Source: Patescibacteria group bacterium (GTDB lineage: Bacteria > Patescibacteriota > WWE3 > UBA101185 > UBA10185). From it: a stretch of 36,315 nt of DNA. Under the pieces are notes generated by a model. That model made no database searches and was not told the DNA's origin. It saw only the letters and a list, made by a program, of their open reading frames with translations. The stretch is taken from assembly GCA_019428825.1 (NCBI GenBank), contig JAHYJU010000006.1, positions 1 through 36,315 on the forward strand. The letters are read 5' to 3'. Position numbers and translations under genes: made by a program. Every line of letters starts with the position of its first letter. Within the stretch, counting starts at the first letter, position 1. Shown here one piece after another: positions 3,350-26,580 of this stretch.

Positions 3350-3923
3350 ATTCCTCCAAGCTTGTTATTATACTGAAAGTTTCTTTCCTATCATAAATAA
3401 AGGCTAATTCCCTTAACTTTTCAAAATTTATATCTCTCAAATTATCGAATACAAAATCTTTTTTGATATAGATCATATCTAATAAAGCTCTCTCTTTTGA
3501 AGCAATAAAATATTTTTCATTAGCAACAATTCCTTGACTGCTAAATAAAATGCTACTTTTCACTTGTCGAAAAATCATATTCACGCCACCTACCGTCATT
3601 TTAATAGATTCCTTGCTGGCCAGTGTTATTCTACCATCCCATTGGAATATTATACCCTCCTTAAAAAGTACGGTCTCAAAAGTAATATACGAGGGTGTTC
3701 GAAGCTTGTTAGCGAGCTCCATATTATTTACAGAGCGTCCTTTAATAGCATACAACCCTCTTTTTAGTTGAATAATCTTACCAGAATTTTTTAGATAATT
3801 AATTCGTCGTACTAGGGACCTGTAATTATCGTATTTCCACAACTTATTAAAGTCCTGTGTTGAAAACACAGTCTTTGAGGTAGTATTTAAGATATCTATT
3901 AAACCTCTTGCATTATCAGTCAT
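3333..3923 (-). CDS. AbiEi-type winged-helix antitoxin (module 1)
   Basis: N-terminal winged helix (VFSTQDFNKLW...RRINYLKNSGKIIQLKRGLYAI), LRTPSYITFETVL, IASKERALLDMIYI; overlaps the AbiEii ORF. Confidence 0.88.
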   Translation of the reverse strand: MTDNARGLIDILNTTSKTVFSTQDFNKLWKYDNYRSLVRRINYLKNSGKIIQLKRGLYAIKGRSVNNMELANKLRTPSYITFETVLFKEGIIFQWDGRITLASKESIKMTVGGVNMIFRQVKSSILFSSQGIVANEKYFIASKERALLDMIYIKKDFVFDNLRDINFEKLRELAFIYDRKETFSIITSLEEYARSY

Positions 3924-4061: not shown

Positions 4062-5096
4062 CTACTCATAAGTATAATAAGTAGCTCTACCCTTCCCTTT
4101 TCTTTTTATTAATCCTAATTTTCTTAATTTATAAAAATCCAAAGCTCGGGTAGATTTGGCTCTATCGGTTAATTTTGAGTACTCGCTATCAGTTATATAA
4201 CCGTACTCCTCAATGTGTTTTAAAACTTTACGATCGTGGTCTCTTAGAGAAGTACCGGGATCCGTCCCGAATTTTTCAAGCTCTTTTGACACTCTTATCA
4301 ACTCATCAATTATCCCGTCAGTAAAATATTCTAACCATTTAGTAAAATCTACATTTTTTTCAATTTCGTAATAATTTCCCTGTACCCCAACATTTTGAAA
4401 GTATTTTGTGACATTTTTATTGTAGTAATTTTCAAAACTAAACAAATTAAATGTATCTAGGCCCATATTTGCCAACAATAACTTTGTTAATAACCTCACT
4501 GTTCTTCCATTACCATCAACAAAGGGATGGATTATGACAAATTGTTTATGAAATAAACCTGCGATTATGATTGGGTCTATTTCCTCCTTATTTTTATTTA
4601 CATAATCAATTAAAGCTTTCATTAAATCATTAACATCTTTTGCATCCGGTGGAAGGTAGATAATCTCCCCATTCCTTGGATTGTTTACAACAACAGGAGC
4701 ATTCCTATAATCTCCAAAATTCCCATTTTGTAATAAACCTTTCATAACTTTTTTGTGTACATCTAGAACTAACTTTTTATTAAACGTTTTGCTTTTTCCC
4801 ATAATCTTTCGAAGATAAATTAATGCATCATTATAGTTAATAATTTCTTTTTCGCTATCTCTTGCATGTTCAGGCTTGTTTTTGAGGATCTTTTTTACCT
4901 CAGTTAAAGGCAAAATATTCCCTTCAATACTGGTTGATGAATAAACTGACATACTAACTGCAGTTTTTTCCAAATTCATTTTTATTGTTTCAGGAAATCT
5001 TCTATTATTTAACTCTGTTGTTATCCTTGTTATATCCTTTATATTGAAGAGTAATTTTGGGGTTATTGTATATTTGGGATCAAATTCCATAGACAT
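4062..5096 (-). CDS. Fic/DOC family protein (putative AMPylase), class II with C-terminal winged helix
   Basis: Fic motif HPFVDGNGRTVRLL; N-terminal inhibitory-helix motif SSTSIEGN (S/T-x-x-x-E-G/N); C-terminal wHTH-like LKHIEEYGYITDSEYSKL...LGLIKRKGKGRATYY. Confidence 0.93.
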   Translation of the reverse strand: MSMEFDPKYTITPKLLFNIKDITRITTELNNRRFPETIKMNLEKTAVSMSVYSSTSIEGNILPLTEVKKILKNKPEHARDSEKEIINYNDALIYLRKIMGKSKTFNKKLVLDVHKKVMKGLLQNGNFGDYRNAPVVVNNPRNGEIIYLPPDAKDVNDLMKALIDYVNKNKEEIDPIIIAGLFHKQFVIIHPFVDGNGRTVRLLTKLLLANMGLDTFNLFSFENYYNKNVTKYFQNVGVQGNYYEIEKNVDFTKWLEYFTDGIIDELIRVSKELEKFGTDPGTSLRDHDRKVLKHIEEYGYITDSEYSKLTDRAKSTRALDFYKLRKLGLIKRKGKGRATYYTYE

Positions 5097-5186: not shown

Positions 5187-6011
5187 TTATTTACTCTTTT
5201 TATCCAACTCTTCAAGAACATCTCCAAACAAATCAAGTTTTCTTAAATCCACAGAATCAAACAGGAACGGGTTAATTTTGGTACCAAATGTCCTTGGAAT
5301 ACCTTCGTCTTTAAATTTTTTCAGCGCTTCCTTTATCACATTTTGAACCTTATTCTTTTTCGCGAAAGATGAATCAAAACCAACACCCTGAGAATACAAC
5401 CAAACAATGTCATAGATATCCCTTGGCTGAGTCTTTTTTCTTTTAACATAAGCGGTTAACTTCTGTACCATTGTTTGATCTAATTTATTTGCCACTACAT
5501 TTTCAATAAAACCGTATTTATTGAAAAGAACTAATTCCGTTACTTGGCCTACCCAGTTATTTGTATAATCAAACTTTATCATCAGCTTTTCTCTGGGATC
5601 GGTTGAAATCTTTAAATCTTTTAGTAAATTCGGGAATCTTAAATCAAAATATGTCTTTCCCTCTGTTATCTGCTCTCTTAATTCAAGATTAAAGCCCTCT
5701 TTATGAAATCTATTAACTACATCTGTGACCAAAGATATTACTTCTTTATTTGATAACCCTAGGTTATCAAAATCAAGGTCTTCGGAAAAACGATTTAAGT
5801 TTCTGAGAAGTCTTAGACTTGAACCACCAACAAAAGACATTTTTTCTGAACCTGATAAGGAGTAAAAAATAGATATAAATTTTGATTGCAGGTACTCCCT
5901 AATTACACCTCTTTTTCTATCTACAGGAATACTGTTTTGCTTGGCGAATTGAAGTATTTGGTCGAAATTTGAAATAATATTGTTCATAATCTTAACACCT
6001 TCCCAACCCAC
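5187..6011 (-). CDS. AbiEii-type nucleotidyltransferase toxin (module 2)
   Basis: MSFVGGSSLRLLRNLNRFSEDLDFDNLG; KLTAYVKRKKTQPRDIYDIVWL. The likely true start is the internal MNNIISNF. Confidence 0.88.
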   Translation of the reverse strand: MGWEGVKIMNNIISNFDQILQFAKQNSIPVDRKRGVIREYLQSKFISIFYSLSGSEKMSFVGGSSLRLLRNLNRFSEDLDFDNLGLSNKEVISLVTDVVNRFHKEGFNLELREQITEGKTYFDLRFPNLLKDLKISTDPREKLMIKFDYTNNWVGQVTELVLFNKYGFIENVVANKLDQTMVQKLTAYVKRKKTQPRDIYDIVWLYSQGVGFDSSFAKKNKVQNVIKEALKKFKDEGIPRTFGTKINPFLFDSVDLRKLDLFGDVLEELDKKSK

Positions 6012-6556
6012 TCGGGAAAATGGGAAATATATTTTCTTAGTATATTATTGTCATTATTTGACATATATATTCTACTGCCCGATATATCTTTTATACGCCT
6101 AACATAGATGTAATCCAATAGAGCTTTTTCTATTGATGCAATGTTGTAGTAGATATTACTCTGTTCGTCCAATACACTTTTGTAACCAAAAAAAAGATTC
6201 GAATTAACTTTACTGTAAGAGAATTTTCCTATCTCAGTATCGAATTTTTTTGACGTTACTGTAGTTATACTAGTTATTGTAGACGGTATGTCAGGAATTA
6301 CTCCGTAAATATTTAACGCGTACTCTAAACTTACATAAGAGGGTGAGTAGAGTTTGTTGGCAATTACCAACTCATCTATTTTGGAATCCGGAAACATAAA
6401 TAATTCTCTTTTTATACCAATTACCTCACCTCTATTTCTAAATCTATATAACTGGGTGTTTATTTGTTCTTTTGATTCATGAGAAAATGCTTTGGATATA
6501 TCGGTTCTTGTGAATATTGGGGTTTTAATTTTTTCTTTTAGTTCTTTTAGTGTCAT
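5984..6556 (-). CDS. AbiEi-type winged-helix antitoxin (module 2)
   Basis: PIFTRTDISKAF...YRFRNRGEVIGIKRELFMFP, LYSPSYVSLEYAL, IASIEKALLDYIYV; overlaps the downstream toxin. Confidence 0.85.
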   Translation of the reverse strand: MTLKELKEKIKTPIFTRTDISKAFSHESKEQINTQLYRFRNRGEVIGIKRELFMFPDSKIDELVIANKLYSPSYVSLEYALNIYGVIPDIPSTITSITTVTSKKFDTEIGKFSYSKVNSNLFFGYKSVLDEQSNIYYNIASIEKALLDYIYVRRIKDISGSRIYMSNNDNNILRKYISHFPEWVGKVLRL

Positions 6557-7253: not shown

Positions 7254-7979
7254 CTAATGTATTTCTTTCTCCAACATCAACAAAAGCTCATCTTTAAGAT
7301 GGGGTAACACAGTGTTTAATTTCCCGGAATCAACTAATGGGTTTAAATCCTCATTTAACAAACGGGTATCAACGTTATCTTTGATAAATTTAAATAGACT
7401 TTCTATGTACTCCTTGTAGGACATTTTTGATAAATCTTCTACAACTTTTTTATTTATTTCCAATCCTTGTGTAAAAAAATTGTGAATATCGTAAAAATCT
7501 CTCCCTGAAATTTTTCCGGTTTTGTCGAAACGACTCTTGGCAGCAATTAACTTGTTGGCAAACATTGTGTCTAATGTGTGGCCACGACAGTACGTATTTA
7601 ACTCAAGTAAACTAACCGATTCGTATTCATTGAATTTACTGGGTCTATCATTTATCTCTAATTTAAGTGTGTTTCTTTGAACTTGAGGTGTATCGTATTT
7701 TAAGAAAAATTGAAGGTGGTTTTTACTTTCATCTTTAATTAATAAACCAAGATCATTAAATATCTCATATAGAGAGTCTCTTATCTCAGACTTAAATGTG
7801 TCGTCAGGAAGATCAAAATCCAAATCAGTCGAAAAACGGTCCAAAACACCTCTTAAGGAAGCGTAAGTACCTCCTTTAAACATCAGATTGTTTGACAGTA
7901 AGTTATTAGAAAGAATTGATCTTAACAATCTTAAAAGTTGAATTTTGTGATTTATATCTTCTTTTTTTGGTGTAAACAT
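7254..7979 (-). CDS. AbiEii-type nucleotidyltransferase toxin (module 3)
   Basis: MFKGGTYASLRGVLDRFSTDLDFDLPD; FANKLIAAKSRFDKTGKISGRDFYDIHNF. Confidence 0.9.
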   Translation of the reverse strand: MFTPKKEDINHKIQLLRLLRSILSNNLLSNNLMFKGGTYASLRGVLDRFSTDLDFDLPDDTFKSEIRDSLYEIFNDLGLLIKDESKNHLQFFLKYDTPQVQRNTLKLEINDRPSKFNEYESVSLLELNTYCRGHTLDTMFANKLIAAKSRFDKTGKISGRDFYDIHNFFTQGLEINKKVVEDLSKMSYKEYIESLFKFIKDNVDTRLLNEDLNPLVDSGKLNTVLPHLKDELLLMLEKEIH

Positions 7980-7981
7980 AT

Positions 7982-8548
7982 TTAGTAACCTACAAGTTCT
8001 TTAATTTCAGATACGCTACCCCAGGTAATAGGTGATTCGTTATCAAAAAAATACTTTGGATTGTAATACTGAATATCAACTACTGCACGCTCCAAAGAAG
8101 CAATTGAGTACTTTTTTTCATCTTTTATTCCAACACGATTAAAAAGAAATTCGGAATTCATCTTTCTGACTAAAAAAGATATATTTTCATATTTAAAATC
8201 CATTTCTCTATCTCCTACTAATGTAATTTTTTTTACGTTTTGCATAATAACTCCGTTCTGACTTAATACTGTTTCTAAAGATACATAAGAAAAGGGTCCT
8301 GATAGAGCACAACCTATTTCAAAAGGATCAAGTTTTGAAGGCTCGATTTTTGAAAACATTCCTTTTTTTATTCTGTGTAGTGTTTTGTTTTGAACGTATC
8401 TTTTTAATGTAGTCCAAAGAGTATTTTTATTTGTTATACCCCAGATAGTTGCTATATCAGAACTTGAAAAGATGTTTTTGTCAGCGTTTATCAGCATTTT
8501 TAATTTATCTTTTTGGTCTATCCTGTACATATATGTACAGGATAACAT
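7982..8548 (-). CDS. AbiEi-type winged-helix antitoxin (module 3)
   Basis: IFSSSDIATIWGITNKNTLWTTLKRYVQNKTLHRIKKGMFS, GPFSYVSLETVL, IASLERAVVDIQYY. The real start may be internal (MYRIDQKDK, about 8530). Confidence 0.85.
   Translation of the reverse strand: MLSCTYMYRIDQKDKLKMLINADKNIFSSSDIATIWGITNKNTLWTTLKRYVQNKTLHRIKKGMFSKIEPSKLDPFEIGCALSGPFSYVSLETVLSQNGVIMQNVKKITLVGDREMDFKYENISFLVRKMNSEFLFNRVGIKDEKKYSIASLERAVVDIQYYNPKYFFDNESPITWGSVSEIKELVGY
8519..8544. promoter_or_regulatory. perfect 26-bp palindrome TATCCTGTACATATATGTACAGGATA at the start of AbiEi module 3
   Basis: The sequence equals its own reverse complement; it overlaps the proposed start codon. Confidence 0.75.
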
Positions 8549-8617: not shown

Positions 8618-8938
8618 TTACAACTTATTTTTTTTCTTTGAAACATCTCTTTTACCTACATCATAATCACTTCTATACTCATCCCTTAACCTGTCTGATA
8701 AATACATTTTAATTAAAGATTGGTAAGGAACATCCTGAGCATTTGCTTTTTCTTTTATCCTTGAAAGCAAGTGATTTGGCAATCTTATGGATATAGATGT
8801 GGTAGAAGGTTTTAGATTTGGAAATGTAACCGGAACAAAATCCTCCGGTTCATAATATTCGTTTAGATCTATCTTGCTCCAAAATTCAAACTCTTCGTCT
8901 TCGCTTTTAAATTTAGGTATTTTTAGTTCTTTTTTCAT
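8618..8938 (-). CDS. BrnA/CopG-like ribbon-helix-helix antitoxin (apparently without a toxin)
   Basis: KIPKFKSEDEEFEFWSKIDLNEYYEPEDF...STTSISIRLPNHLLSRIKEKANAQDVPYQSLIKMYLSDRL. Confidence 0.85.
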   Translation of the reverse strand: MKKELKIPKFKSEDEEFEFWSKIDLNEYYEPEDFVPVTFPNLKPSTTSISIRLPNHLLSRIKEKANAQDVPYQSLIKMYLSDRLRDEYRSDYDVGKRDVSKKKNKL

Positions 8939-8962
8939 AAAGAGGATACTCCTTTTTAATTA

Positions 8963-8985
8963 ATGTATATAACGTATATATACAT
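8963..8985. promoter_or_regulatory. palindromic putative operator of the CopG-like gene (ATGTATATA-acgta-TATATACAT)
   Basis: 9-bp inverted arms upstream of the ORF. Confidence 0.55.
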
Positions 8986-9027
8986 AGTCAAGATTTATTT
9001 TGATTAGAAAGAAGTGGTTTATAAAAA

Positions 9028-9108
9028 CAAAAAAGCCCGGACATCTTGTGTTAAAAGAAAAGAGTCCTACCTACTCTTTAGTTTTTCACTTGATATCCGG
9101 GCTTTTTT
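9028..9108. terminator. bidirectional intrinsic terminator with internal hairpin
   Basis: AAAAAAGCCCGGA...TCCGGGCTTTTTT with nested AGAGTCCTACCTACTCT. Confidence 0.75.
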
Positions 9109-9178
9109 AAAATTTAATTTTCTTCTAATTAAATTCTTCTAATTCTTTAAATATTTCTTTTAAAAAATTGGAAGAACT

Positions 9179-9229
9179 TGGGAGGTAAGTGGTAAGAATA
9201 TAGTTGTAACAGATATACTTACCTCCCAT
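9179..9229. other. 12-bp stem-loop after the stop of the 9234-9539 ORF
   Basis: TGGGAGGTAAGT...ACTTACCTCCCA inverted repeat. Confidence 0.6.
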
Positions 9230-9233
9230 AGAA

Positions 9234-9539
9234 TTACATTTGTTTTAGAGCCTTTTCCAAGCCCTCTTCGAGTAATAAATACAAGAAGAAAGGCCAAATT
9301 ACGATGGCTCTGATACTTTGGATTTTTTTCCTTGGGTATGAAAAATATTCAAAAATAAATCCGAATATGATATACCCCAGAACAATGGAAATATCCAAAG
9401 TTTTGATGTTATGACCAAAAAAGAGTGAATCAGCAATTGAAATCACTCCATATCCGGTTAGTCCAAATACTATGGCTAACAAAATAGCCATCAGTAAGGA
9501 CATAAAAATACATAAAACAAACATCAAACTTTTTTTCAC
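9234..9539 (-). CDS. small membrane protein, hypothetical
   Basis: 101 aa with several hydrophobic segments; follows the CSD gene with the same orientation. Confidence 0.65.
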   Translation of the reverse strand: MKKSLMFVLCIFMSLLMAILLAIVFGLTGYGVISIADSLFFGHNIKTLDISIVLGYIIFGFIFEYFSYPRKKIQSIRAIVIWPFFLYLLLEEGLEKALKQM

Positions 9540-9556
9540 TTTAGCCTCCTTTGGCT

Positions 9557-10309
9557 TTACACTCTTTTCGCATCTTCTTTTTCTAAATCCTCATTCCTTT
9601 TTTCAAAAGATGAGCGGTCACCAATAAGACGATGCTTGGTACGACCATGGCCATGATGATTAGGTACTGAGAAATCAAGTACCCAATCGTTGTCTGTGAC
9701 TTTAAACAGTGCGGCCCATTTCATACCGTGCCCATCCCCATACTCAAATATTTTTTCCAAACCTTCCGCCTTGTCAATAAAAACAGAAGACATGGCATTG
9801 TAGGAGATGTGCATAACAATGTAGGTCTCACCAGGAGTTAATTTAAAAACTCCCTTTGCTAAAGAACTCATTCGTGCCCTTGAAGGTAATTCAAATTTCA
9901 CATAATCACCATGAATAATACCTTTTTCGAAGGAATTATTATCAACATATACATGGCGGCCATAGTAATTTGAAGCCACAGGCACCAATATTGTTGCAGG
10001 GCCAAGCTTTCGACGGAGCTCTTCTTCAGCTTCTTTAGCTGTTTCTAAATCAGCTAATTTTTGGGCAAGTATTTCCTCCTCTTTTTGTACAGCATTTTTT
10101 TCTTCAGCTGTAAGAGACAAACTTGCCGATGTTACCTTCAGTCCTTTATCGTTCTCCATGAGGTCTTTTACTACAACCTCACGGTTCGATAGATCTACCC
10201 CATAAGGCTGTCTTGAATCAAGGGCGGTTACATGCATAAAAACATCATGCCCTTGAAAATTAACAAATCCAAATCCACGATCTTTATACCAACGTACAAT
10301 TTTAGCCAC
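9557..10309 (-). CDS. cold-shock-domain protein with coiled coil and C-terminal domain of unknown function
   Basis: N-terminus AKIVRWYKDRGFGFVNFQGHDVFMHVTAL matches CSD RNP motifs; then a Glu/Lys-rich helix and an unrecognised ~140 aa domain. Confidence 0.85.
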   Translation of the reverse strand: MAKIVRWYKDRGFGFVNFQGHDVFMHVTALDSRQPYGVDLSNREVVVKDLMENDKGLKVTSASLSLTAEEKNAVQKEEEILAQKLADLETAKEAEEELRRKLGPATILVPVASNYYGRHVYVDNNSFEKGIIHGDYVKFELPSRARMSSLAKGVFKLTPGETYIVMHISYNAMSSVFIDKAEGLEKIFEYGDGHGMKWAALFKVTDNDWVLDFSVPNHHGHGRTKHRLIGDRSSFEKRNEDLEKEDAKRV

Positions 10310-10461
10310 TTTAACCTCCTTTTTAGGTTTAATAGGGATAGCTTCCCTTTTTTCTTTTTTGTGCTTTAGGCAAATGCCTCGGCTACACTCAAAACCGCCT
10401 CTAAATTAAGAGGAATTAAATTACATATGTATATAATCTAATTTCTCCATTTTAGATTTTT

Positions 10462-10553
10462 AAAAAAGGTGTTGAGGAGAGGTCACATAATTAATCACAT
10501 CTAAAATTTTGATGTAAAAACGTACGTGAAACCCCTCCTTTGATTGCTTTTTT
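10462..10553 (-). ncRNA. structured RNA element, copy 1
   Basis: Shares AAAAAAGGTGTTGAGGAGAGGT and GTACGTGAAACC[CT]CTCC[CT][CT]TGATTGCTTTTTT ends with copy 2; apical hairpin ACATC...GATGT. Confidence 0.6.
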
Positions 10554-10773
10554 GCCCTATGGTCTCGCCCACACAGTACTTATTCCACCTACCATCCGGT
10601 AGAAATAGGAAAAGTTCCATCTGTATGGATCCGCATTTACGTTTTGGACACTACTTCGCTTAATTTTTGTAAAGCAGTATGTAGTGAGAGGTTCATCACC
10701 TCAGCCAAACGCCACACGTCTATCAGCATGAACTGACACTTTAGCATGTGGTTTGTATTGAAGAAGCCAGTGC

Positions 10774-11112
10774 TTACAAACGCACTGTCTGGACCTCAAC
10801 CTTTTTAACTTTCTCATAATGCGAGAAACTAAAAGTTGCGGTGCCATCTTCCTTCAACTCCCTATCCATTACGGCCCGAATAACCGGGCTAACTTTCTGA
10901 GAGTTAATAACCTCAGACAGGATGGGAAGAGGAAGTACGGCTTCCAGCACAGTCGCACTGTGCTCCTCCACCAGCTCGAGAACACGATCGGCATCTGGTA
11001 CTGTTTCCGAGATCTGTAATATCTCGGCGTTAGAACCAAAAATCCGCTTTAGCTCTGCAAGCTGTTCCTCACTTGCCGGGTGGCGCGTGAGGCGAAGGAT
11101 CACTTCCTTCAC
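10774..11112 (-). CDS. hypothetical protein, 112 aa
   Basis: Coherent ORF (MKEVILRLTRHPASEEQLAELKRIFG...); no family recognised. Confidence 0.7.
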   Translation of the reverse strand: MKEVILRLTRHPASEEQLAELKRIFGSNAEILQISETVPDADRVLELVEEHSATVLEAVLPLPILSEVINSQKVSPVIRAVMDRELKEDGTATFSFSHYEKVKKVEVQTVRL

Positions 11113-11254
11113 TTTTTTCTCCTTTCCTTTTTTATTCCCTGCAGGATTGCAGGGTAAGATTGGCTTGACCTTTAAAGGAAGTCATCTCCTTACCGATTGT
11201 TCGGTAATAAAAAACAAAATTAAATAAATTTAATTTGATCTTTTACCACAAAAC

Positions 11255-11350
11255 AAAAAAAGGTGTTGAGGAGAGGTTCGCGTTCACATAGTTGCATTGA
11301 AATTTTCAATGTTAATATGTACGTGAAACCTCTCCCCTGATTGCTTTTTT
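11255..11350 (-). ncRNA. structured RNA element, copy 2
   Basis: Same ends as copy 1 with an apical hairpin of different sequence (CATTG...CAATG) in the same position. Confidence 0.6.
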
Positions 11351-11411
11351 TAGCTCAGCTGTTTAAAACTTTTTAAATGATAAGCGAGCTTGTACTTACC
11401 AAAACCTTTTT

Positions 11412-11498
11412 GGCTGCAGAACATTAGATCCTGATTATAGGATTTACGGTGCCAACCGTTGTTCTAAGTGAGCCGAGGAAAGGTGATTCCTCTTTTTT
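11412..11498. other. three-way-junction-like fold followed by a plus-oriented terminator-like hairpin
   Basis: AGAACA(11418-11423)/TGTTCT(11460-11465) enclosing ATCCTgattatAGGAT and ACGGTgccaACCGT, then GAGGAAaggtgaTTCCTCTTTTTTT. Confidence 0.5.
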
Positions 11499-11500
11499 TA

Positions 11501-11884
11501 CTAACTCCAGCGATTAAGAACCGCTGAAATTATTCCTTCTCCTGGGATCTTAACTTCCAACCATTCCTGGTCGGAAAAAAATCCCTTGATGCCCATCAAG
11601 GCATATACCTTGATGGAAGCGCCCAAAAAGTCCACTACCTCCTCGAAGGAGGTAGTTTTTCGTACTTCCCCCAAATTCCTTACCATTCCCCCCAACTGGT
11701 AAGTTTCCCCCTTTTTCTCGACTATCGTGTAATAACCTCCAGGGAGGTTAATACACATGTACCCACCCTCTCGGATGGATACGCTATTTATTCCCTCAAT
11801 GCCTTCTATGGCATTGAGGGTTTCTAATATCCACTGGGGGATTTCATTGGGGAAAATCCCCAGTTCAAGAATAAACTCTGCCAT
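11501..11884 (-). CDS. hypothetical protein, 127 aa
   Basis: MAEFILELGIFPNEIPQWILETLNAIEGIEG...; preceded by an AGGAGG ribosome-binding site (AAAAAGGAGGAAAAAATGG on the minus strand). Confidence 0.75.
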   Translation of the reverse strand: MAEFILELGIFPNEIPQWILETLNAIEGIEGINSVSIREGGYMCINLPGGYYTIVEKKGETYQLGGMVRNLGEVRKTTSFEEVVDFLGASIKVYALMGIKGFFSDQEWLEVKIPGEGIISAVLNRWS

Positions 11885-12864
11885 TTTTTCCTCCTTTTTC
11901 AGGTCTGTTGGGGATGGCTCCCCATTTTGGATTTTCCTATCAAGCGTTTTTGCTCAATAGCTAGTACAGGCATTCTTGGTAGGCAGGAATAAATACCTGT
12001 ACATAGTTATTGAACAAATAATTACAACAATTTTTGAATTTTCATTGATTTAACTTAAATTTTCAAAGTACTCTTTCCTTAACTTTTTCCTAATCTCAAC
12101 TCTCATTTTTAAAAAATTAAGAGCTGAGTTAGGAGACCATCTTGTTAAAAAAACAAAATGATAAACTCTCTCCTTTTTAGGTAGTATCCATAAACCTATT
12201 TGGTAGGATACTTTAGGCAGGAAGTAAACAGATTAATATTCACTACCTTTTAAGTTCTTTAATTTTGAACTTTTTCTAATTCTTCTTAGATCTTTTAATT
12301 TCAAATCTCTAAGAGCAAAATTTTAAAGCAATCATATATTGGGCCACTCTTCTCGGCAAAGCTTTAGCGTAGCCGGACAGATTCCCTATTTGTTAAGGTT
12401 TTTACCTTAACTTCTGAATAATTTTATTCAGATTTTAAAGTCTTCCTAATCTTTCGTATTAAAGGGATATACCCAGTAATAACCAATTTGGTAGGAAAAG
12501 ATTGTAGGCGACTATGTAATTTAATGTTTAAAAGATTAAAATTTTTATCTTCTAAACAAAAATCTGTCTAAGATATCGGTGGGTCTAACTTAGTACTCTC
12601 CCCGGTTTATTTAAAATAGAATATATTTCTATGAATATGGGATGATAGGTTATTGTCCCGTGTATCTTAGGCAAGTTTCTGTTTAGAATTAAAAAAAGCC
12701 AAGAACTGAAAAGAATATTTTTATTCTTACCAAATCCCGGCTTTGTTTATTTAAAAGAAAATCTTTTTTGGTAGGCCTTAAAGATCTGGTAGGTTCTTTT
12801 GCTTCTTTCTATGTAGTTTTAAAAGTACTCTCCTTCTTTCTTTTTTTAATTTCTAACTTTGAAC
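11885..12864 (-). ncRNA. candidate ~1 kb structured leader RNA
   Basis: No credible ORF; many perfect hairpins, long-range helices and a four-fold recurring CCUACCAA motif; preceded by a consensus-like promoter. Confidence 0.5.
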
Positions 12865-12870
12865 AACTGA

Positions 12871-12899
12871 ATTATATCTTATAGTTTTATATTTGTCAA
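12871..12899 (-). promoter_or_regulatory. sigma70-type promoter P1: TTGACA-N17-TATAAT
   Basis: Reverse complement of 12871-12899 gives consensus -35 and -10 with 17-bp spacing. Confidence 0.75.
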
Positions 12900-26241: not shown

Positions 26242-26316
26242 AACTTACTGCCTCTAAGATTTTAGTATAAATGTTGGGGGGAGGTAAACCACTAACTGGT
26301 GTTGGAGTATGCTCCG

Positions 26317-26516
26317 GACTGAGTCCGGGACTGAGTTTAGGACCAATTTAAGTATGAAAAAACACGGAAATTTAGAAAAGGGTAGATTTTCTAGACTGAG
26401 TCCGGGACTGAGTCTAGAAAAAAATTTATCGAAAATATATGACAGGAAACCTCTTTAACACCTAAGTTTCCTGGTTTATCAACCTTCGCTAGACTGAGTC
26501 CGGGACTGAGTCTAGC
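26317..26516. repeat. three hairpin repeats with identical 20-bp core GACTGAGTCCGGGACTGAGT
   Basis: Cores at 26317-26336, 26394-26413 and 26492-26511 in the dnaX-pth intergenic region. Confidence 0.85.
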
Positions 26517-26580
26517 AGAGGGCTAAGCCCTTACTTAAATTTAACTACGGAATATAAAATAATTATCTAGATATCAGTAT

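Follow-up and report, generated by a model that had tools for sequence, protein, structure and literature searches.

Two copies of a 92–96-nt hairpin element lie in successive gaps of a predicted minus-strand operon in the window, i.e. the whole 36,315-nt stretch of DNA that was analyzed. The interpretation that we favor, at a probability of roughly 0.4, is that they are inter-cistronic processing or boundary hairpins in a polycistronic minus-strand RNA of the antitermination type. Taken alone, the hairpins are a modest find; the hyper-structured operon around them is more unusual, in that the codon order of its four genes lets the RNA fold on itself, and homologues of its genes are found in or beside RNA scaffolds that bear a hammerhead-like motif. 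If the boundary role is true, the locus would point to a way in which reduced bacterial genomes package or process their small genes at the RNA level.

Two copies of a single hairpin module

Copy 2 (11255–11350, minus strand) lies in the gap between genes A and B, and copy 1 (10462–10553, minus strand) in the gap between genes B and C; both were defined by sequence, fold z-score and cmsearch score (117.3 and 112.2 bits, respectively). The copies are 76% identical (E 1.7e-14 when a 131-base query containing copy 1 retrieves copy 2), a similarity far above chance, and they constitute one module with unrelated flanks and sharp boundaries at A/T tracts. The coordinates and terminal blocks given by the first-pass annotation agree with the sequence, as do its apical stems (CATTG/CAATG and ACATC/GATGT) and its basal stem, which is plain in copy 2 and contains in copy 1 a pair that reads G–U on the minus strand and A–C on the plus strand.

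In copy 2, the outer helix (A-tract-G / C-U-tract) is followed by an internal loop, CAAUCAGG / UCAACAC, a stem, GGGGAGAGGU/ACCUCUCCU(C), and an inner hairpin, CAUUG..CAAUG, with an additional CGCGAA on the 3' side. Copy 1 has the outer helix A6-G / C-U6, the internal loop CAAUCAAA / UCAACAC, the stems GGAGGGG/CCUCUCC (with one G–U pair) and UCACGUA/UAUGUGA, and the apical stem ACAUC/GAUGU. The differences between the copies cluster apically (20 of 41 columns, versus 3 of 54 in the basal part; Fisher p 1.3e-6), so that the conserved part of the element comprises its basal helices together with the internal loop, CAAUCA / UCAACAC.

Compared with dinucleotide shuffles, both copies fold stably on the minus strand (z −5.3 for copy 1 and −7.5 for copy 2) as well as on the plus strand (−3.2 and −7.8, respectively). 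The earlier argument that the G–U pair favors minus-strand RNA holds for copy 1, which is more stable on the minus strand (−29.0 versus −23.4 kcal/mol), and is offset by copy 2, because there the wobble in CGCGT/ACGTG falls on the plus strand, which has the more stable fold (−39.9 versus −35.7 kcal/mol). Taken alone, the two copies leave the strand unsettled. Their differences had also been described as compensatory: there is indeed one two-sided change among 19 pairs (C–G to U–A), but 238 of 500 shuffles match it, which, with two sequences only, makes for thin evidence. Note that the minimum-energy fold pairs the U-tract flank of copy 2 with the A-tract of copy 1 into a closing helix, to which we gave no weight because near-palindromic copies pair with each other anyway.

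The copies lie in promoter-free gaps of a predicted operon

From 8618 to 11884, every likely gene is on the minus strand. Gene A (11501–11884) codes for a 127-aa protein of no known family, and no homologue of it was found in the genome sample; gene B (10774–11112, GTG start) codes for 112 aa, gene C (9557–10309) for 250 aa with a sub-threshold match to a cold-shock-like domain at the N-terminus, and gene D (9234–9539) for a small hydrophobic protein of 101 aa. Copy 2 begins 151 nt past the gene A stop codon, its far end being 142 nt short of gene B, while copy 1 begins 221 nt past the stop codon of gene B and ends 152 nt before gene C. The GTG starts do lie where had been noted, at 10309 (152 nt from the nearer end of its element) and 11112 (142 nt), and have good Shine-Dalgarno sites. 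The distances behind the description 'upstream of two genes' are thus right, but the copies are inter-cistronic and could equally be called downstream of two genes.

A sigma-70-type promoter, TTGACA-17-TATAAT, that matches the consensus at 12 of 12 positions precedes the operon (12871–12899, minus strand), and the promoter-like sites that were listed include none in the element-bearing gaps; we infer that A, B, C and D are co-transcribed from this promoter. At the other end stands the operon terminator, AAAAAAGCCCGGATATC..GATGTCCGGGCTTTTTT (9029–9108, minus strand, ending at 9034; −30.2 kcal/mol), whose stem is separated from the U-tract by a spacer of 0 nt, whose symmetry gives the same pattern on the plus strand, and whose outer helix, AAAAAAG/CUUUUUU, is the same as in the element copies. 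A boxA-like site, GTACTTTTAAAA (12817–12828, minus strand), comes directly after the promoter, and a second one, GTACTTTGAAAA (12060–12071, minus strand), lies in the leader of gene A; they are the only boxA-like matches in the window and both are on the operon strand, two matches being also what 33 of 100 shuffles give. The gene A leader itself (11885–12870, minus strand, about 985 nt) is structured (fold z −9.6) and contains five CCTACC motifs and a terminator-like hairpin that ends at 12697 with a spacer of 0 nt.

Several other features of the window were recorded. CCTACC occurs 20 times (8.4 expected; none of 100 shuffles reaches 20), the five occurrences in the gene A leader being on the minus strand. 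A perfect 12-bp inverted repeat, TGGGAGGTAAGT / ACTTACCTCCCA (9179–9228), lies between gene D and the operon terminator. AbiE-like genes are clustered at 5187–6556 and 7254–8548 (AbiEi-like antitoxins at 5984–6556 and 7982–8548, AbiEii at 7254–7979), near a CopG antitoxin (8618–8938) and a Fic protein (4062–5096). Finally, GACTGAGTCCGGGACTGAGTC is repeated four times (spacing 12, 77 and 98) in intergenic DNA at 26305–26524.

The predicted operon transcript is hyper-structured

The 891-nt stretch that runs from copy 2 to copy 1 has a fold z-score of −14 in one test and −17 in another, whereas seven of eight controls of the same length gave values from +1.8 to −0.6 and the eighth gave −3.9. The coding sequences share this property: in synonymous shuffles, which retain the protein and the codon usage, A, B, D and C were the four most structured of the 36 genes of the window (z −8.5, −5.4, −5.1 and −4.1, respectively; −2.5 for the next gene), a ranking with a chance probability of 1 in 58,905 for a test that was made after the locus had already been seen as structured.

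When stems are counted by a rule that is neutral between the strands, those of the operon contain 33 G–U pairs versus 13 A–C on the minus strand (p 0.007 relative to composition and p 0.02 relative to the remainder of the window). This excess favors selection on the minus-strand RNA; the reverse strand folds strongly as well, so that a DNA-level contribution is possible. Folding, transcript direction, promoter-free gaps and the operon-wide G–U excess together uphold the proposal of the first-pass annotation that the locus holds a duplicated structured RNA of the minus strand.

The element is confined to two copies in the genomes searched

Further copies, for which a covariance search had been proposed, were not found: the 842-kb genome (71 contigs) holds these two alone, as judged by a sequence query and by a covariance model built on the two copies. 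The model also matches both copies on the opposite strand, because they are near-palindromic. It gave no match in three genomes of the G094 family (see below), nor in 44 further genomes of the class and 378 other genomes of a phylum-wide sample, the latter two sets being searched under strict filters that weak relatives might escape. The small size of the genome (0.84 Mb; 0.4–1.2 Mb in relatives) suggests a bacterium of the candidate-phyla-radiation type. A short-pattern scan of the genome contigs returned scattered 16-nt matches, and none of the first 80 was supported by the covariance model. Phage and plasmid searches were negative, and viral contigs gave no hit either to exact patterns of the element and the scaffold or to proteins B and C. 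Rfam has no match anywhere in the window, the best sub-threshold match at the copies being RsaE (31.5 versus 79 bits), and we found no description of such units in the literature. A conserved tie to one class of downstream gene is absent from the genomes searched: none has a copy, and the loci homologous to B and C are without the element.

A scaffold with exchangeable genes in relatives

Homologues of gene B occur in three further genomes of the phylum (G094, G369 and G130), and gene C has one, 57–58% identical, in G007 (same family). These homologues lead to a conserved RNA scaffold that carries an exchangeable small gene, found at L133:2870–3698 in G094 and at L139:6127–5362 (minus strand) in G007, the two being 92% identical over 197 bp and 84% identical over 283 bp. 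A further locus, L146:2626–3620 in G012, has the same order and another gene, and parts of the scaffold occur at L147:2640–3300 in G009. The order is a strong promoter, a boxA-like site, the closing arms AACAAGATACGCATCY / GGATGCGTATCTTGTT, a hairpin in the leader, the gene, a conserved 3' domain and a hammerhead-like motif. The G094 scaffold holds the gene B homologue; the G007 scaffold holds a different gene, of 98 aa, that directly precedes the gene C homologue. Six such loci contain ten matches to the boxA-like pattern GNWCTTTDAAAA, all on the gene strand, and GCACTTTGAAAA and GTTCTTTGAAAA stand directly before the structured unit in L133, L139, L146 and L147. The motif in L133 and L139 resembles a type III hammerhead (RF00008), at 29 bits under an Rfam threshold of 48.5, and in G012 it was recognized by eye only; the whole scaffold unit has no Rfam match.

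In G094, the hammerhead-like motif begins 227 nt past the stop codon of gene B, and copy 1 begins 221 nt past that of its own gene B. Copy 1 thus appears to occupy the place of the scaffold's 3' arm and hammerhead motif, in a purely positional correspondence: the window and the scaffold loci show no significant sequence similarity beyond the coding region of gene C. Our hypothesis is that the operon and the scaffold may be linked through genes B and C. Coding hyper-structure is a trait of the window operon, since the scaffold genes of relatives are not hyper-structured (shuffle z −0.9 for gene B of G094 and −1.4 for the 98-aa gene of G007); the gene B copies of G130 and G369 have it too, in weaker form.

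The neighborhoods and products of these genes provided additional observations. The G094 unit lies between a tRNA gene and a degenerate copy of the end of that same tRNA (82% over 34 nt; L133:2571–2604 and 3716–3793), which gives the impression that a unit of some 1.15 kb was inserted beside the tRNA. G130 has a cluster of tiny genes with two gene B homologues and with repeated inter-cistronic hairpins of its own, different from ours (L135:8353–8420, 9149–9216 and near 3440–3500; 2594–2618 and 4178–4202). One gene B homologue in G130 (L135:9257–9676) weakly matches a CARF model (E 0.001), and the small gene of the G009 unit (L147:2791–3135) weakly matches STIV_B116-like proteins (E 0.005); both families are tied to cyclic oligonucleotide signalling. 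The predicted structure of the gene B product, of low confidence (pLDDT 66), has no significant fold match.

Boundary hairpins and competing interpretations

We favor boundary hairpins because the copies sit in promoter-free gaps of the predicted operon and a proper terminator is present at its end alone. One long minus-strand transcript would start at the 12899–12871 promoter, pass a boxA-like antitermination site, whose use is presumed, and carry A, B, C and D. Each copy would then mark the border of two cistrons, its stem acting as a double-stranded stalk for putative processing or protection, either by stopping exonucleases at the 3' terminus of the preceding cistron or by offering a cut site to a double-strand-specific RNase, so that every cistron would become a separate RNA with a stability of its own. 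The U6–7 and A6–7 tracts count against this scheme: they resemble parts of a terminator, and a processing stalk requires neither.

That two different start codons lie at similar distances from the copies (142 and 152 nt) would also suit a cis-regulatory leader of the riboswitch or attenuator type, which would sense a ligand or a protein and control genes B and C, with the internal loop CAAUCA / UCAACAC as putative binding site and the U-tract as output. Identical internal loops with variable tips are what a binding site would show, and the U-tract is terminal. However, the copies are just as near to where genes A and B end, their 3' strand has no standout alternative partner, the upstream AAAAAGG segments being outside the ten best targets in the window, and, unlike most riboswitches, they have neither an Rfam match nor a copy in the other genomes searched. 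We consider such a leader unlikely. A long-range antiterminator pairing between the 3' strand of the element and the upstream AAAAAGG was rejected, as it is not among the best window targets. Of the structured leader RNA originally proposed, the structured RNA is supported; the leader function does not follow, since each copy can as well be taken for a 3' element of the gene before it.

The A6/U6 symmetry, the stable stem and the outer AAAAAAG/CUUUUUU shared with the real terminator of the operon raise the question of whether the copies are conditional or weak intrinsic terminators, possibly active on both strands, that set polarity and are read through by an antitermination-modified polymerase. 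The boxA-like sites, given the role of boxA in antitermination (PMC7862264), would accord with such read-through. Intrinsic terminators, however, combine a G+C-rich stem with a U-tract within 0–2 nt. The copies are not canonical terminators because their stems lie 7 nt (minus strand, copy 2) or 10 nt (plus strand) from the U-tracts, as compared to 0 nt at 9034 and 12697. Moreover, the A–U outer helix contributes just 2.6–3.9 kcal/mol and neither copy is listed by the terminator pattern scan. A simple bidirectional terminator, the alternative raised by the first-pass annotation, fits poorly, with 7–8 unpaired bases between stem and U-tract in both copies. We consider the conditional variant as unlikely as the leader, and the copies are more likely to serve in processing or as boundaries than to be ordinary terminators.

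Inverted ends, sharp A/T-tract boundaries and unrelated flanks are also features of a MITE-like small mobile inverted-repeat element inserted twice, but only two copies exist in 842 kb, in the same orientation and both in the gaps of one operon, and their flanks have no target-site duplication, which makes this origin improbable. A self-cleaving ribozyme of undescribed type, acting to cut the polycistronic RNA, would have in its favor a large conserved internal loop and the location of copy 1 where G094 and G007 (and G012 by eye) have the hammerhead-like motif, yet it too is improbable, with two sequences only, no match to the Rfam ribozyme families even at E 10, hammerhead included, and a simple rod with one internal loop that is not in itself ribozyme-like.

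Some known classes were rejected. The type III hammerhead, defined by a CUGANGA and GAAA core with three helices, has no match among the copies even at E 10, and no known class of self-cleaving ribozyme matches them in Rfam. The RYYYAAC / GTTRRRY core sites of an integron attC are absent, the element ending in AAAAAAGCAATCA and CTCAACACCTTTTTT. A kink-turn or box C/D motif on the plus strand, seen by eye, fits copy 2 better than copy 1 and was dropped.

Beyond the hairpins, the operon might belong to an undescribed class of hyper-structured RNA gene units of small-genome bacteria. In it, exchangeable small genes in large folded scaffolds would be transcribed with antitermination of the boxA type, and dedicated boundary elements would release them (a hammerhead-type ribozyme in some lineages, the hairpin pair here), synonymous codons being tuned to keep the whole RNA folded. 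We put this forward as a speculative proposal, with the odds against it.

Comparison with known systems

The copies share with A-tract/stem/T-tract intrinsic terminators the outer AAAAAAG/CTTTTTT helix and a stable stem, and differ from them by the 7–8 nt left unpaired before the U-tract, identical in both copies. The scaffold units of G094 and G007 (and of G012 by eye) are comparable in gene families (B inside, C adjoining), place, strong promoter and boxA-like site; they differ in that there is no sequence similarity and that the copies have no hammerhead core.

Leaders with boxA/Nus-dependent antitermination are found upstream of rRNA and CRISPR arrays (PMC7862264). The operon resembles them in having a strong promoter, then the boxA-like GTACTTTTAAAA and structured RNA downstream, its boxA being judged from sequence alone. 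A search of this genome for 16S rRNA found none, and hence no boxA of its own 16S leader for comparison.

The closest parallel to the preferred boundary hairpins is with the RNase III processing stalks and inter-cistronic stabilizing hairpins of bacterial operons, of which the stems of pre-rRNA are an example. Unlike pre-rRNA, the window transcript is protein-coding and its coding parts are hyper-structured, and processing is here a prediction. The likeness lies in the stable hairpins, which stand between the cistrons of what is predicted to be one polycistronic transcript and follow a boxA-like site.
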